Below, piece by piece: positions 52,856 through 57,273 of a stretch of DNA of 64,000 bases (positions are counted from its first letter, which is position 1; each line of letters begins with the position of its first letter). A program made the position numbers and the translations under genes. The stretch is from NCBI GenBank assembly GCA_902574355.1, contig CACGNN010000001.1:235165-299164 (forward strand). Reading direction: 5' to 3'. Origin of the DNA: an uncultured SAR86 cluster bacterium (GTDB taxonomy: Bacteria > Pseudomonadota > Gammaproteobacteria > Magnimaribacterales > Magnimaribacteraceae). The notes beneath the pieces are model-generated. The model had not been told where the DNA came from. It was given only the letters and a program-made list of their open reading frames with translations, and made no database searches.

Positions 52856-53233
52856 ATGAATAATTTGTACAAAATATTAAGAGAATATGAATGGGAAGAG
52901 GCTAAAGAAACAGGTCAAATTACTACAGCTTTAGATAAGCAAGATGGATTCGTCCATTTATCAACTGCATCTCAACTGGCTGGCACATTAGCTTTTTTCT
53001 TCAAGGAATCAGACTCTCTTCTACTCCTGCAACTAAATTTAAATAAGATAGATGAAACTAAATTAATCTATGAATCTCCTCACCCTAATGCAGGAAAAAG
53101 AAAAAGTGCTTTTCCTCATCTTTACTCTCAATTAACGACTGACCAAATATTTGAAAGTTGGAATATAAAAAGAGGAAGTTTTAGTCTTCCAGAAGAAGTT
53201 CTGCTTCAAGCAGAAAACTTAGTTCAAGAATAA
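52856..53233 (+). CDS. DUF952 family protein
   Basis: LYKILREYEWEEAKETGQIT...DGFVHLSTASQLAGTLAFFF...FPHLYSQL. Confidence 0.85.
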   Translation: MNNLYKILREYEWEEAKETGQITTALDKQDGFVHLSTASQLAGTLAFFFKESDSLLLLQLNLNKIDETKLIYESPHPNAGKRKSAFPHLYSQLTTDQIFESWNIKRGSFSLPEEVLLQAENLVQE

Positions 53234-53252: not shown

Positions 53253-53304
53253 ATATGGAGCTGGCGATAGGATTTGAACCTACGACCTGCTGATTACAAA
53301 TCAG
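53253..53304 (-). repeat. Truncated 3' part of tRNA-Thr(TGT), distal att-like direct repeat
   Basis: 52 bp identical to 54656-54707; contains anticodon arm to CCA end but no 5' acceptor strand or D arm. Confidence 0.9.
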
Positions 53305-53354
53305 TTGTTTTGCTATCTTAATCTCTTCAAAGTGTTACTAAATCAACAATCTTG

Positions 53355-53416
53355 ATGGTTTGCACATGGTTTGCACGAAAACGAACTGTGTAACTTGGTT
53401 TGCATATGGTTTGCAA
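53355..53416 (+). repeat. Four 11-bp repeats WTGGTTTGCAN in two tandem pairs, possible integrase arm-type sites
   Basis: ATGGTTTGCAC 53355-53365, ATGGTTTGCAC 53366-53376, TTGGTTTGCAT 53395-53405, ATGGTTTGCAA 53406-53416. Confidence 0.75.
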
Positions 53417-53438
53417 ATTTAAAATCTATACTCAATTT

Positions 53439-53466
53439 TTGAAGACGCATGCAGTGTCCTTATAGA
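53439..53466 (+). promoter_or_regulatory. Candidate sigma70-type promoter for the autotransporter gene
   Basis: TTGAAG-N16-TATAGA, about 50 bp upstream of the start codon. Confidence 0.3.
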
Positions 53467-53515
53467 CATTCTGTCGGCAAAAGGTTAATTTGAAATTAAA
53501 TTTTTGGAGAGAAAA

Positions 53516-54607
53516 ATGAAAAAATTATTAACGATTTTCTGTTTGTCTTTTATTTTCGGAGTGGGCAATGTATATGCAGATGAAAGCAGCTCTAGTTCTG
53601 AAGAAAGTAGTTCTAGTTCTGAAGAAAGTAGTTCTAGTACAGAGTCTGCTAGCACAGTTGGCGAGGCTAAAACCTATGCCGTTAAATTTAATAGTGAAAT
53701 AAAAAAGAACGAGATTTGGGAAGTAAAATCTGATGGAACAAATGTAAAGTTAATTGATTTTGAATTTCCTTCTGGTTATTGGACACCCGCAACCTCCTAT
53801 GCTAGCAATAAAACTGGAAAGATTTATCTGAAAGATTCAGGTTTAGGTTTAACAGAAGAAGAAAAGGGCTGGGTAGTTTATGACCCAGCAACCAATACCC
53901 TTACAACGGGAGTCAAAGAAGGTTATCACGAAGGTTACCAAAAGGTCTTTAGTGATGTGCTTAAAATAGATTCTTTAATACGTTCAGATGATGGAAGCTC
54001 TATACACATAGGAGAAAATTCTTTAGTAACTGTCGAAGAGAATGGCGTTCAGCAGCTATATGCTACAGATGCTAATGGTGACATGATAAACATCAATATA
54101 AAGAAGGGTACAGACTTATTGATTGATGGGGTTAGTGTTTCGGGTTCTCTTAATACAAATGCTACAAATATAGCTACTAATTCAACAAATATAGCTACCA
54201 ATAAAACTAACATAGCTACTAATACGACAGACATAGCTACAAACGCAACTAATATAGCTGCTAATACGGCAGAGATAGCTACTCACAGCACTTCTATTGC
54301 TAGTAATACCACCGCTATTGCTGCTTTAGGCTCTGATTTGAGTGCATTCAAGGCTTCAACAAATTCTCAAATGAACTATATGAAATCTGATTACAGTTCA
54401 GGTATTGCTTCTGCTATTGCAATGAGCCAATTTAATTTAGCTCAAGAAGGTTTCTCGGTTGGAATAGGAAGAGGTTCTTACAACGATGAAGATGAAACTG
54501 CTTTTGGATTGGGTTACGGAGGTGAATTTAAAAACGGAACACTCTTTAAGCTTCAAGCCAGTAAGAGTGGTGATGCCAGTGGAGTTGGATTAACAATCTC
54601 CTTCTAA
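53516..54607 (+). CDS. YadA-like trimeric autotransporter adhesin
   Basis: Signal peptide; SSSSSEE repeats; heptad stalk ATNxTNI repeats; C-terminal SAIAMSQFNLAQEGFSVGIGRGSYNDEDETAFGLGYGGEFKNGTLFKLQASKSGDASGVGLTISF resembling a YadA anchor; RBS GGAGAG favours ATG 53516 over track TTG 53504. Confidence 0.78.
   Translation: MKKLLTIFCLSFIFGVGNVYADESSSSSEESSSSSEESSSSTESASTVGEAKTYAVKFNSEIKKNEIWEVKSDGTNVKLIDFEFPSGYWTPATSYASNKTGKIYLKDSGLGLTEEEKGWVVYDPATNTLTTGVKEGYHEGYQKVFSDVLKIDSLIRSDDGSSIHIGENSLVTVEENGVQQLYATDANGDMININIKKGTDLLIDGVSVSGSLNTNATNIATNSTNIATNKTNIATNTTDIATNATNIAANTAEIATHSTSIASNTTAIAALGSDLSAFKASTNSQMNYMKSDYSSGIASAIAMSQFNLAQEGFSVGIGRGSYNDEDETAFGLGYGGEFKNGTLFKLQASKSGDASGVGLTISF
54151..54324 (+). 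repeat. Degenerate 21-bp tandem repeats encoding the ATNxTNI heptad stalk
   Basis: ATAGCTACTAATNNNACNAAY units read directly. Confidence 0.85.
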
Positions 54608-54612
54608 AAAAT

Positions 54613-54653
54613 AACCCTTACAAGAAGCTCAAATAGAATTTTTTGTAAGGGTT
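54613..54653 (+). terminator. Perfect 11-bp stem hairpin between adhesin gene and tRNA-Thr
   Basis: AACCCTTACAA (54613-54623) and TTGTAAGGGTT (54643-54653), 19-nt loop, no long T tract. Confidence 0.6.
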
Positions 54654-54658
54654 TAATA

Positions 54659-54734
54659 TGGAGCTGGCGATAGGATTTGAACCTACGACCTGCTGATTAC
54701 AAATCAGCTGCTCTACCAACTGAGCTACGCCAGC
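54659..54734 (-). tRNA. tRNA-Thr(TGT), CCA encoded
   Basis: Reverse complement GCTGGCGTAGCTCAGTTGGTAGAGCAGCTGATTTGTAATCAGCAGGTCGTAGGTTCAAATCCTATCGCCAGCTCCA. Confidence 0.96.
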
Positions 54735-54744
54735 GCGGTGAGCA

Positions 54745-55548
54745 TTATAGTTCTCTTATTGAAACTTCGCCATAACGAAGAGTAAGATATTGTGAACCTT
54801 CTTTAACAAGCATTTCTCCTTTGTCGTTCACACCTACGACCTCTACAGTTTTATCAATACCTTCAATGTTAACGCTACATTTTCTCCCTGTGAGTAAATC
54901 CAATGATTCATAGTCTGATTTATAGGGTTTAAAACCTTTATCGGGAAATACTGTAGTGAGTTGAAAAACCTTATTTACAATATCTCCTATAATTTCATTT
55001 CTATCATTTATTGAGTCAGTTACTTGATCTAAAGAAATCCATGACTGATCAATCTCTTTCCCTTCATCATCAGACATATGTACATTTATGCCTATGCCTA
55101 TTACAACTCCTACTTGATTGTTTATATCAATAGTTTCTATCAGGATTCCTGATATCTTCTTTTTTTCAATCAACAAATCATTAGGCCACTTAATGCCAAC
55201 TTGATTTTGAGTAAATTTATTTAGGGTAGACGCAACAATAGAACCAATAGCTAGGCTTAATCCATCTAGATGTGAGTACTTCAGTTTAGACAGCCATCCA
55301 ATAGAGAGGTATATGTTTTTTCCTTTTGGGCTAATCCATTTCTTGCCATTTCTTCCTCTTCCTGCAATTTGTTGTTCTGATGTGTGGATTGACAATAAAG
55401 ATGATTGCTCTGATAAGAAATTCTTTGCATCATTATTAGTGGACCCTGTAGATTGCGATATAAATATTTCAATACTCGTATCTAATAGATCACTATCTAA
55501 GAAATCTTTTAATAAATCTATATCTAGAGAAATGTAATTGTCTTTCAT
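54745..55548 (-). CDS. birA: Biotin--[acetyl-CoA-carboxylase] ligase (no N-terminal HTH apparent)
   Basis: STNNDAKNFL, EQQIAGRGRNGKKWISPKGKNIYLSIGW, VGIKWPNDLLIEKKKISGILIE, GIGINVHM. Confidence 0.93.
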   Translation of the reverse strand: MKDNYISLDIDLLKDFLDSDLLDTSIEIFISQSTGSTNNDAKNFLSEQSSLLSIHTSEQQIAGRGRNGKKWISPKGKNIYLSIGWLSKLKYSHLDGLSLAIGSIVASTLNKFTQNQVGIKWPNDLLIEKKKISGILIETIDINNQVGVVIGIGINVHMSDDEGKEIDQSWISLDQVTDSINDRNEIIGDIVNKVFQLTTVFPDKGFKPYKSDYESLDLLTGRKCSVNIEGIDKTVEVVGVNDKGEMLVKEGSQYLTLRYGEVSIREL

Positions 55549-55639
55549 AACCTAAAATTTTTGGAAATTTAAGTAATTTAAGTTGACATAGTAAGCTTGC
55601 AGTTACAGAATTGCGCGCTGTTTTTTAACCTAATTTATA

Positions 55640-55724
<85 letters not shown>

Positions 55725-55904
55725 TTAAAAAATCTCTCCAAAAGATGCGAAAACACTTGCATTAGAGGCCTAAAAATACTATAAAAGCGCTCCGAGCTTT
55801 GGGTTGTAGGTTTTATTTCAATAGATTTTATAGATTATTTTGTTTCTCTGTTTATCAGAAAAAATACTCTACACCCTAAAAAAGCAGCAAAAATTAAGAT
55901 TTTT

Positions 55905-55980
<76 letters not shown>

Positions 55981-56011
55981 GGTAATAGTAATTTAAATTT
56001 AGGGAAAAAAA

Positions 56012-57196
56012 ATGGCTAAAGAAAAATTTGAAAGAACCAAACCCCATGTCAATGTAGGAACAATTGGACACGTCGATCATGGTAAAACAACTTTAACTGC
56101 TGCGATAACGAAAGTTCAAGCTGAAGCTCTAGGTGGAGAAGCAATTGCCTTTGATGGTATTGATAATGCACCAGAAGAAAAAGAACGTGGTATCACGATA
56201 TCTACCTCTCATGTTGAATATGATTCTGAATCAAGACATTATGCTCACGTAGACTGTCCTGGTCACGCTGACTATATTAAAAATATGATCACAGGTGCCG
56301 CTCAAATGGATGGCGCGATACTAGTAGTGAATGCTGCAGATGGTCCGATGCCTCAAACAAGAGAGCACATACTTTTAGCAAGGCAGGTCGGAGTACCCCA
56401 TATAGTAGTATTTCTAAACAAAGCCGATATGGTCGATGATGCTGAATTAATTGAATTAGTTGAAATGGAAGTAAGAGAACTATTAACAGAGTATGACTTC
56501 CCTGGTGATGATACTCCTGTGATTGTAGGATCTGCATTGAAAGCTCTTGAAGGAGATGCAGAGTACGCTGCAAAAATACAAGAGCTAGTTCAAGCATTGG
56601 ATGATTTTGTCCCAGAGCCTGTAAGAGACACTGACAAACCTTTCTTAATGCCTATTGAAGACATATTTACAATCCAAGGTCGTGGAACAGTTGTAACAGG
56701 TAGAATTGAAAGGGGCGAAATTAAAGTAAATGAAGAGATAGAAATAGTTGGTATTAGAGAGACTACTAAAACTGTTTGTACTGGCGTGGAGATGTTCAGA
56801 AAACTTCTCGATGAAGGGAAGGCAGGAGAAAATGTCGGTATCCTTTTAAGGGGAACTGAGAGAGATGCTGTTGAAAGAGGACAGGTGCTCACTAAGCCGG
56901 GAGCTATTAATCCTCATACTAAGTTCGAAGCTACAGTCTATGTTTTATCTAAAGAAGAAGGCGGACGACACACACCTTTCTTCAAAGGATATAGGCCACA
57001 ATTCTATGTAAGAACTACTGACGTAACAGGAGCTGTAGAGCTTCCAGATGGTGTTGAAATGGTTATGCCTGGAGACAATATAGACATGACTGTTGAACTA
57101 ATCTCTCCTATTGCAATGGAAGATGGAATGAACTTCGCAATAAGAGAAGGTGGAAGAACAGTTGGTTCTGGAGTAGTTACTAAGATTATTGATTAG
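56012..57196 (+). CDS. tuf: Elongation factor Tu
   Basis: [50 protein letters not shown]. Confidence 0.99.
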
Positions 57197-57197
57197 T

Positions 57198-57273
57198 AGG
57201 CCAGTAGCTCAATTGGCAGAGCGACGGTCTCCAAAACCGTAGGTTGGGGGTTCGATTCCCTCCTGGCCTGCCA
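57198..57273 (+). tRNA. tRNA-Trp(CCA), CCA encoded
   Basis: AGGCCAG/CTGGCCT, anticodon loop CTCCAAA; 1 nt after tuf stop. Confidence 0.95.

Follow-up and report, generated by a model that had tools for sequence, protein, structure and literature searches.

The stretch of DNA analysed here (64,000 nucleotides, hereafter 'the window') comes from contig 1 of a SAR86 genome (Gammaproteobacteria; G000), an assembly of 1.435 Mb in 34 contigs that is 90.5% complete. SAR86 bacteria are streamlined and are among the most abundant bacteria of the surface ocean. Within the window, a block of ~1.4 kb is situated between a DUF952 gene and birA, two core genes that are syntenic in relatives, and it holds one large gene bordered by a partial and a complete copy of tRNA-Thr(TGT) (Table 1).

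Anatomy of the tRNA-Thr locus

Comparison of the window with itself reveals that the partial tRNA copy is identical over 52 bp to positions 54656-54707 of the intact gene (91% over 66 bp), with 1403 bp separating the two matching stretches. Only one intact tRNA-Thr(TGT) gene is detected, and the distal copy ends just beyond the anticodon arm and thus has no D arm or 5′ acceptor strand, two absences that an earlier sequence-only reading of this DNA had already noted. The intact gene forms part of a tRNA cluster next to tuf (54659-57273 of the window), from which tRNA-Thr(TGT) is split off beyond birA on the opposite strand and in which there is no tRNA-Gly. This arrangement differs from the usual gammaproteobacterial order.

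A feature that had escaped the sequence-only reading is a set of four TGGTTTGCA copies at positions 53356-53415, which start ~51 bp inside the remnant and are laid out as TGGTTTGCACATGGTTTGCAC followed 40 bp on by TTGGTTTGCATATGGTTTGCAA. Tyrosine integrase arm-type sites typically look like this, with 9-mers in directly repeated pairs next to a piece of a tRNA; those of KplE1 are a worked example (PMC2951348). Chance alone would produce the paired motif 0.01 times in a window of 64 kb, and a first pair as good as the observed one, which starts 50-51 bp inside the core, was obtained in none of 100 shuffles. At the opposite (tRNA) end of the block, the same repeat test yields p=0.45 and no arm repeats were found. 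The spacer between the remnant and the repeats includes AATCAACAATCTT, a possible IHF-like site, and sigma-70-like matches in the leader of the passenger gene are no better than those in shuffled sequence.

Table 1. Features of the tRNA-Thr(TGT) locus, in window coordinates
Feature	Position	Strand	Basis and remarks
DUF952 gene, core flank at the remnant side	52856..53233	+	PF06108, E=1.1e-21; syntenic in relatives
Displaced 3′ part of tRNA-Thr(TGT), candidate distal att copy	53253..53304	-	52-bp identity; flanks, when joined, give the empty site of G013/G007/G006
att-proximal spacer TTGTTTTGCTATCTTAATCTCTTCAAAGTGTTACTAAATCAACAATCTTGA	53305..53355	+	Common to cassettes with differing cargo and arm motifs
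Arm-type direct repeats, pair 1: ATGGTTTGCAC, two copies, 11-bp spacing	53355..53376	+	Repeat search, shuffles
Arm-type direct repeats, pair 2: TTGGTTTGCAT and ATGGTTTGCAA	53395..53416	+	Repeat search
Putative leader/promoter region of the passenger gene	53417..53515	+	Assigned from position
Passenger gene, probable trimeric autotransporter adhesin (363 aa)	53516..54607	+	ATG start; TTG start at 53504 possible
Predicted coiled-coil stalk with 21-bp (7-residue) repeats	54137..54415	+	Direct repeats 54133-54321; helix 208-300 in the model
Probable YadA-like C-terminal anchor	54446..54607	+	YadA_anchor, residues 311-363; 85 residues share 94% aa identity with the cassette gene of G005
Terminator-like hairpin between passenger and tRNA	54613..54653	+	14-nt arms, 93% complementary
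Intact tRNA-Thr(TGT), predicted integration target restored by the cassette	54659..54734	-	ARAGORN
birA, core flank at the tRNA side	54745..55548	-	PF03099, E=6.9e-20; syntenic in relatives

The passenger gene is the sole large ORF between the repeats, and the ORF list together with recombinase searches confirms the earlier statement that no integrase is encoded there. Its product had been called a YadA-like surface protein, an assignment that stands as probable. The coiled coil of the protein has PDB matches among the stalks of trimeric autotransporters, and a low-confidence model (pLDDT 60) predicts a beta head, a 93-residue helix and four C-terminal strands. The YadA_anchor match itself is weak (E=0.0084; 16.6 bits against a Pfam gathering cut-off of 22.7). 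We describe the protein as a probable trimeric autotransporter (YadA-like) adhesin, as judged from these sequence matches and the predicted topology.

This adhesin is mosaic between the window genome and its congener G005, with 45% amino acid identity in the N-terminal part and 94% in the C-terminal part. Recent horizontal transfer of the gene between the window genome and G005 or G015 finds no support, as evident by dS values of 1.1-1.3 that are near the core-gene level (1.4 or more). Members of the adhesin family also adjoin tRNA-Phe (G017, G023) and tRNA-Arg (G037), and those of G004 and G057 sit away from tRNAs. A search of IMG/VR returned no relatives of the adhesin in viral contigs.

The tRNA-Thr site in related genomes

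Three genomes of the same genus (G013, G007 and G006) carry an empty birA/tRNA-Thr/DUF952 site that the window's flanks, once joined, match without a gap, and two more (G004 and G016) have a single tRNA-Thr at this location. Because the joined flanks gaplessly reproduce the single-tRNA site of three close relatives, a chance origin of the repeats is excluded. Other genomes carry different cargo at the same tRNA. G011, which is about as near to the window genome as G013 (core dS mostly 0.2-0.4), has two lipoprotein-like genes behind TGGTTGACC arms, and G014 has a 1299-aa helicase related to the DpdF/PsyrT defence proteins. In G005 there is a tandem array of two cassettes, the first with a lipoprotein-like gene and the second with the adhesin homolog; the contig ends within this homolog, and its other half lies beside the tRNA on another contig. 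Two cassettes are likewise present in G027, which belongs to another genus, and a third genus (G033) has a secreted-protein gene behind TGGTTTGCA arms. The sequence-only reading had proposed that the block was inserted at tRNA-Thr by site-specific recombination and that its cargo is exchangeable. Both proposals are supported by this comparison of the birA/tRNA-Thr/DUF952 junction, with its gapless empty sites, other cargo and arrays, and by the presence of integrase-type arm repeats.

Among the tRNA-Thr cassettes of the window and its relatives, no integrase gene was found and no fragment of one. The cargo consists mostly of secreted or lipoprotein-like proteins. The cassette heads are 85-91% identical across unrelated genes; that of the window is 91% identical to the head of G011 over 105 bp, 89% to that of G014 over 96 bp, and 90% to that of the first G005 cassette over 164 bp, and the genes that follow are different in each case. 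The arm pair is located ~50 bp inside the core with a spacing of 11 or 12 bp, and in four cassettes its two members are identical at 9 of 9 positions with a spacing of 11 bp (shuffle p<=0.01). The arm sets of G014 and of the second G005 cassette are degenerate, and no arm repeats were found at the tRNA end of any tRNA-Thr cassette.

G011 and G014 have the head, promoter and leader in common, and the remainder differs. At three loci (L020:2946-3260, L077:5400-5510 and L082:5764-6282), a promoter and a signal peptide resembling MKNLTITLLTLL are shared, and the mature proteins differ. Judging from their sequences, cassettes of this kind suggest head-swapping.

Integrase-bearing and integrase-less elements in the SAR86 order

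Non-Xer integrases are rare in the family, and a P4-type set was found in five of the 203 SAR86-order genomes that we surveyed, with both PF00589 and PF13356 present in all three of the integrases scanned. Elements that encode them place the tRNA 3′ remnant first, then a spacer, the arm repeats and the integrase gene, and the latter begins directly after the repeats, at the position held by the passenger in the cassettes. Because the integrase elements run in this order, the cassettes can be said to share their layout, with a passenger in place of the integrase. The elements reside at tRNA-Asn (TGGTTCGCC arms), tRNA-Pro (TGGTTCACA) and tRNA-Phe (TGATGACTT, GGTTCAC or TGATGCC), and in two complete tRNA-Phe elements the arms recur before the intact tRNA (G123, TGATGACTT; G044, GGTTCAC). 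A matched pair from one genus is particularly informative: at tRNA-Phe, G044 carries an integrase gene and G042 carries instead a 1027-aa restriction-helicase gene, behind near-identical heads that align almost end to end.

At tRNA-Thr itself, a contig of G017 ends in what appears to be the right end of an integrase-type element, with TGGTTGACC arms that equal the G011 motif; the alignment is short, and we regard the assignment as suggestive. The integrase-bearing elements have in common a right-end motif, AAAATGTTyGAGCACTnnTATATA..CCTGC (L080:40-240, L125:6690-6830, and the reverse-strand right ends of L145 and L147).

Cassettes with the same anatomy and no integrase recur at tRNA-Phe and tRNA-Ile across the order. 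The tRNA-Phe 3′ half is present in two or three copies in 42 of the 170 order genomes with a recognisable 3′ half, and 20 of these 42 loci were read (L166-L185, e.g. L174:1576-2567). Most lack an integrase, and their cargo includes secreted proteins, pairs of a C5-methylase and an endonuclease, and a type I restriction system, among others. In several of these integrase-less cassettes, arms of matching motif are retained at either end, and the agreement of head and tail motifs averages 14.9 of 16 within an element versus 10.7 of 16 between motif groups. A passenger protein of 107-109 aa (MEKNMQVFKCE..NHNVH.DWDD.GNLHF) recurs in many tRNA-Phe cassettes with varied partners (L168, L170, L171, L174, L177). 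A gene-less, MITE-like segment of 221 bp with arm-like repeats is located between an intact tRNA-Phe and its remnant at L206:4424-4765, and an adhesin homolog comes after it.

The third dock, tRNA-Ile, carries arrays in G086 and G162 (L210:4729-9377 and L211:246-6692), and a G162 cassette there encodes an apparently complete PstS-PstC-PstA-PstB phosphate transporter along with a weak recombinase-like fragment. Thirty-four complete cassettes measure 0.6-5.2 kb, and most of what they encode falls under secreted proteins, restriction systems and a phosphate transporter. A local profile built from 13 recombinases, which recovered four positive controls at 1e-127 or better, detects no recombinase in 32 of them and one in each of the other two, one of these being weak. 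The earlier suggestion of exchangeable surface variation agrees with the mostly secreted or lipoprotein-like proteins at tRNA-Thr, the site for which it was made, but restriction systems and a phosphate transporter are among the cargo at other tRNAs.

Origin of the cassette and its likeness to known systems

The explanation that we favour, with a probability of roughly two in three, is that the block is a non-autonomous cassette placed at the tRNA-Thr(TGT) 3′ half by a P4-type tyrosine integrase (Arm-DNA-bind_3 class) encoded elsewhere. Recombination by this enzyme would take place between the tRNA 3′ half carried by the cassette and its chromosomal counterpart, such that the tRNA stays whole and the old 3′ half becomes the remnant. 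The integrase's N-terminal arm-binding domain is predicted to bind the four TGGTTTGCA repeats, and the passenger would occupy the integrase position of autonomous elements in the same order. Presumably the enzyme is supplied in trans by another (helper) element and acts on a cassette circle, and the cassettes may still move at present. The Thr cassettes lack arms at the tRNA end; therefore, excision may fail. If SAR86 enzymes need both arm sets for excision, we hypothesize that these cassettes enter easily and leave poorly.

It is conceivable that the block is instead an immobile one-gene scar, left when an ordinary integrase-bearing tRNA element lost its integrase and most of its cargo by deletion. 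The arm repeats at one end only, the degenerate arms of G014 and the second G005 cassette, and the absence from the window cassette of the right end that is conserved in autonomous elements are all consistent with decay. However, the Thr cassettes hold no integrase fragments, the tidy order of head, promoter, gene, stop and tRNA is seen again at three tRNAs where the cargo is unrelated, several Phe cassettes without an integrase keep matching arms at both ends, and arrays require repeated insertion. We consider such a scar unlikely, although it deserves weight.

Host recombination could also swap cargo by homologous exchange, using the tRNA 3′ repeat and the conserved head as recombination arms and involving no integrase. 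The similarity of heads in front of different genes, the divergence of G011 and G014 after a common leader, and the mosaic adhesin of G000 and G005 all point in this direction. New insertion at empty sites and tandem arrays are left unexplained, however, as is the fact that the arm motifs of neighbours differ while the spacer is kept. As a sole cause, we judge such exchange to be improbable. It may nonetheless act in addition to integrase-mediated insertion, and exchange across conserved heads probably contributes to diversity, given the mosaic make-up of the adhesin and of the leaders in G011 and G014.

A phage satellite packaged by a helper phage seems very unlikely. The cassette is indeed small, has a tRNA att site and lacks transfer genes of its own, but it contains no phage-like, replication or regulatory gene, its adhesin has no viral-contig relative in IMG/VR, and the arm motif was not seen in related viral contigs. 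PICI and PICMI satellites are defined by regulatory, replication or packaging modules, and only the adhesin gene is found here. Tandem duplication or chance decay of the tRNA gene, the copies of which would then enclose an unrelated gene, would account for the partial copy, yet it is contradicted by the gapless empty sites, by the presence of arm-type repeats and by the recurrence of this geometry at three tRNAs in dozens of SAR86 genomes, and its probability is negligible.

Systems close to this one have been described in other bacteria. In the additive flexible genomic islands of 'Ca. Actinomarinales' (PMC7771536) and similar islands with tRNA-Lys repeats in Methylophilaceae (PMC10872708), small gene sets lie at tRNAs of streamlined marine bacteria, are marked by direct repeats of partial tRNAs, and vary between close genomes. 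The tRNA cassettes of additive islands are defined (PMC7771536) as small gene sets bounded by a tRNA and a partial repeat of it, with content that varies among close genomes, which is what we observe. An integrase is not mentioned in the main text of the Actinomarinales paper (PMC7771536), whereas SAR86 exhibits arm-type sites, integrase-bearing sister elements and a matched pair with and without an integrase.

The 15 ssrA islands of Dehalococcoides that lack an integration module serve as an example of CIMEs (cis-mobilizable elements), the class proposed for tandem islands without an integrase (PMC3146451). The SAR86 cassettes resemble these in their tandem occurrence at one RNA gene and in keeping att sites without any recombination, integration or transfer gene. 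The Dehalococcoides islands rely on serine recombinases, whereas SAR86 has P4-type tyrosine integrases, usually one to few genes per cassette, and most copies have no integrase-bearing neighbour. In KplE1-kind prophages, which are likewise inserted at a tRNA, the tRNA 3′ part, the arm-type sites and the integrase promoter overlap one another within attL (PMC2951348); here a cargo gene takes the place of the integrase. Of the hallmarks of tRNA elements with tyrosine integrases, the tRNA and its 3′ repeat and an empty attB are present and an integrase of its own is absent.

Tycheposons, likewise tRNA-bordered cargo elements of streamlined aquatic bacteria, are described (PMC10872708) as carrying a tyrosine recombinase and spanning 4-200 kb. 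The label 'tycheposon-like' given previously is thus a poor fit for a cassette of 1.4 kb without a recombinase. Integron CALINs (PMC11389934), which are recognised by at least two attC sites, are similar in that small cassettes form arrays and rely on an integrase from elsewhere, but the recombination site of the window cassette consists of a tRNA 3′ half plus linear arm repeats and its target is a tRNA gene.

Cassettes inserted at tRNAs and CIMEs are already known in other bacteria, and the precise cassette anatomy, the pairing with integrase-bearing elements and the order-wide reach in SAR86 are new. The first SAR86 isolate paper mentions neither tRNA nor integrase in its main text (PMC11582366). 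The window cassette has the appearance of a single member of a system in which gene cassettes are exchanged. In a broader and more tentative view, which we hold to be possible rather than probable, the SAR86 order would have an integron-like exchange without an integron: integrases encoded by only a few elements would stack tiny cassettes, composed of a tRNA-half core and linear arms, at tRNA-Thr, -Phe and -Ile, and one-armed cassettes would integrate but excise poorly, ratcheting surface and defence genes into streamlined genomes. The helper integrase might additionally repress a passenger that occupies the integrase position beside the arm sites. The cassette anatomy and integrase-bearing sisters make the swapping of surface and defence genes in streamlined plankton directly testable, as each arm motif can be assigned to a single tRNA target and integrase, and cassette heads can be used to scan metagenomes.

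The sequence-only reading had envisaged an island mobilised in trans. The absence of an integrase of its own is supported, but movement in trans or at the present day is a proposal; within the order, exact TGGTTTGCA arm pairs were found only in cassettes, and tail arms are missing from the window cassette. That reading had advised a search of the genome for an integrase with a matching tRNA-Thr att, and G000 encodes only two tyrosine recombinases, of 303 and 313 aa, which are presumably XerC and XerD. Most of the compared genomes are incomplete assemblies, and at the completeness of G000 a helper missing there is not proof of absence. Neither the 203 order genomes nor IMG/VR yielded an element that combines an integrase with TGGTTTGCA arms, and exact TGGTTTGCA arm pairs occur in the order genomes only in cassettes (G000, G005 and G033).

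Several other candidates were pursued and set aside. In IMG/VR, TGGTTTGCA pairs appear in two contigs only, both unrelated, and alignment with the P4-type integrases yields only four distant matches. Three matches of the tRNA-Thr core to viral contigs proved to be whole phage-encoded tRNA genes rather than att sites. Pairs of AGTGTTCAT, examined as a pointer to a helper of the Phe cassettes, led only to integrase-less cassettes and the tRNA-Ile dock. In GTDB genomes, 17 stretches carry TGGTTTGCA pairs; two are SAR86 (G005 and G033), and several are beside tRNA 3′ ends in unrelated phyla. Pairs of TGGTTTGCA beside tRNA 3′ ends or fragments are seen in Komagataeibacter (L037), Mucilaginibacter (L047), Acidimicrobiaceae (L036) and Gemmatimonadales (L034).
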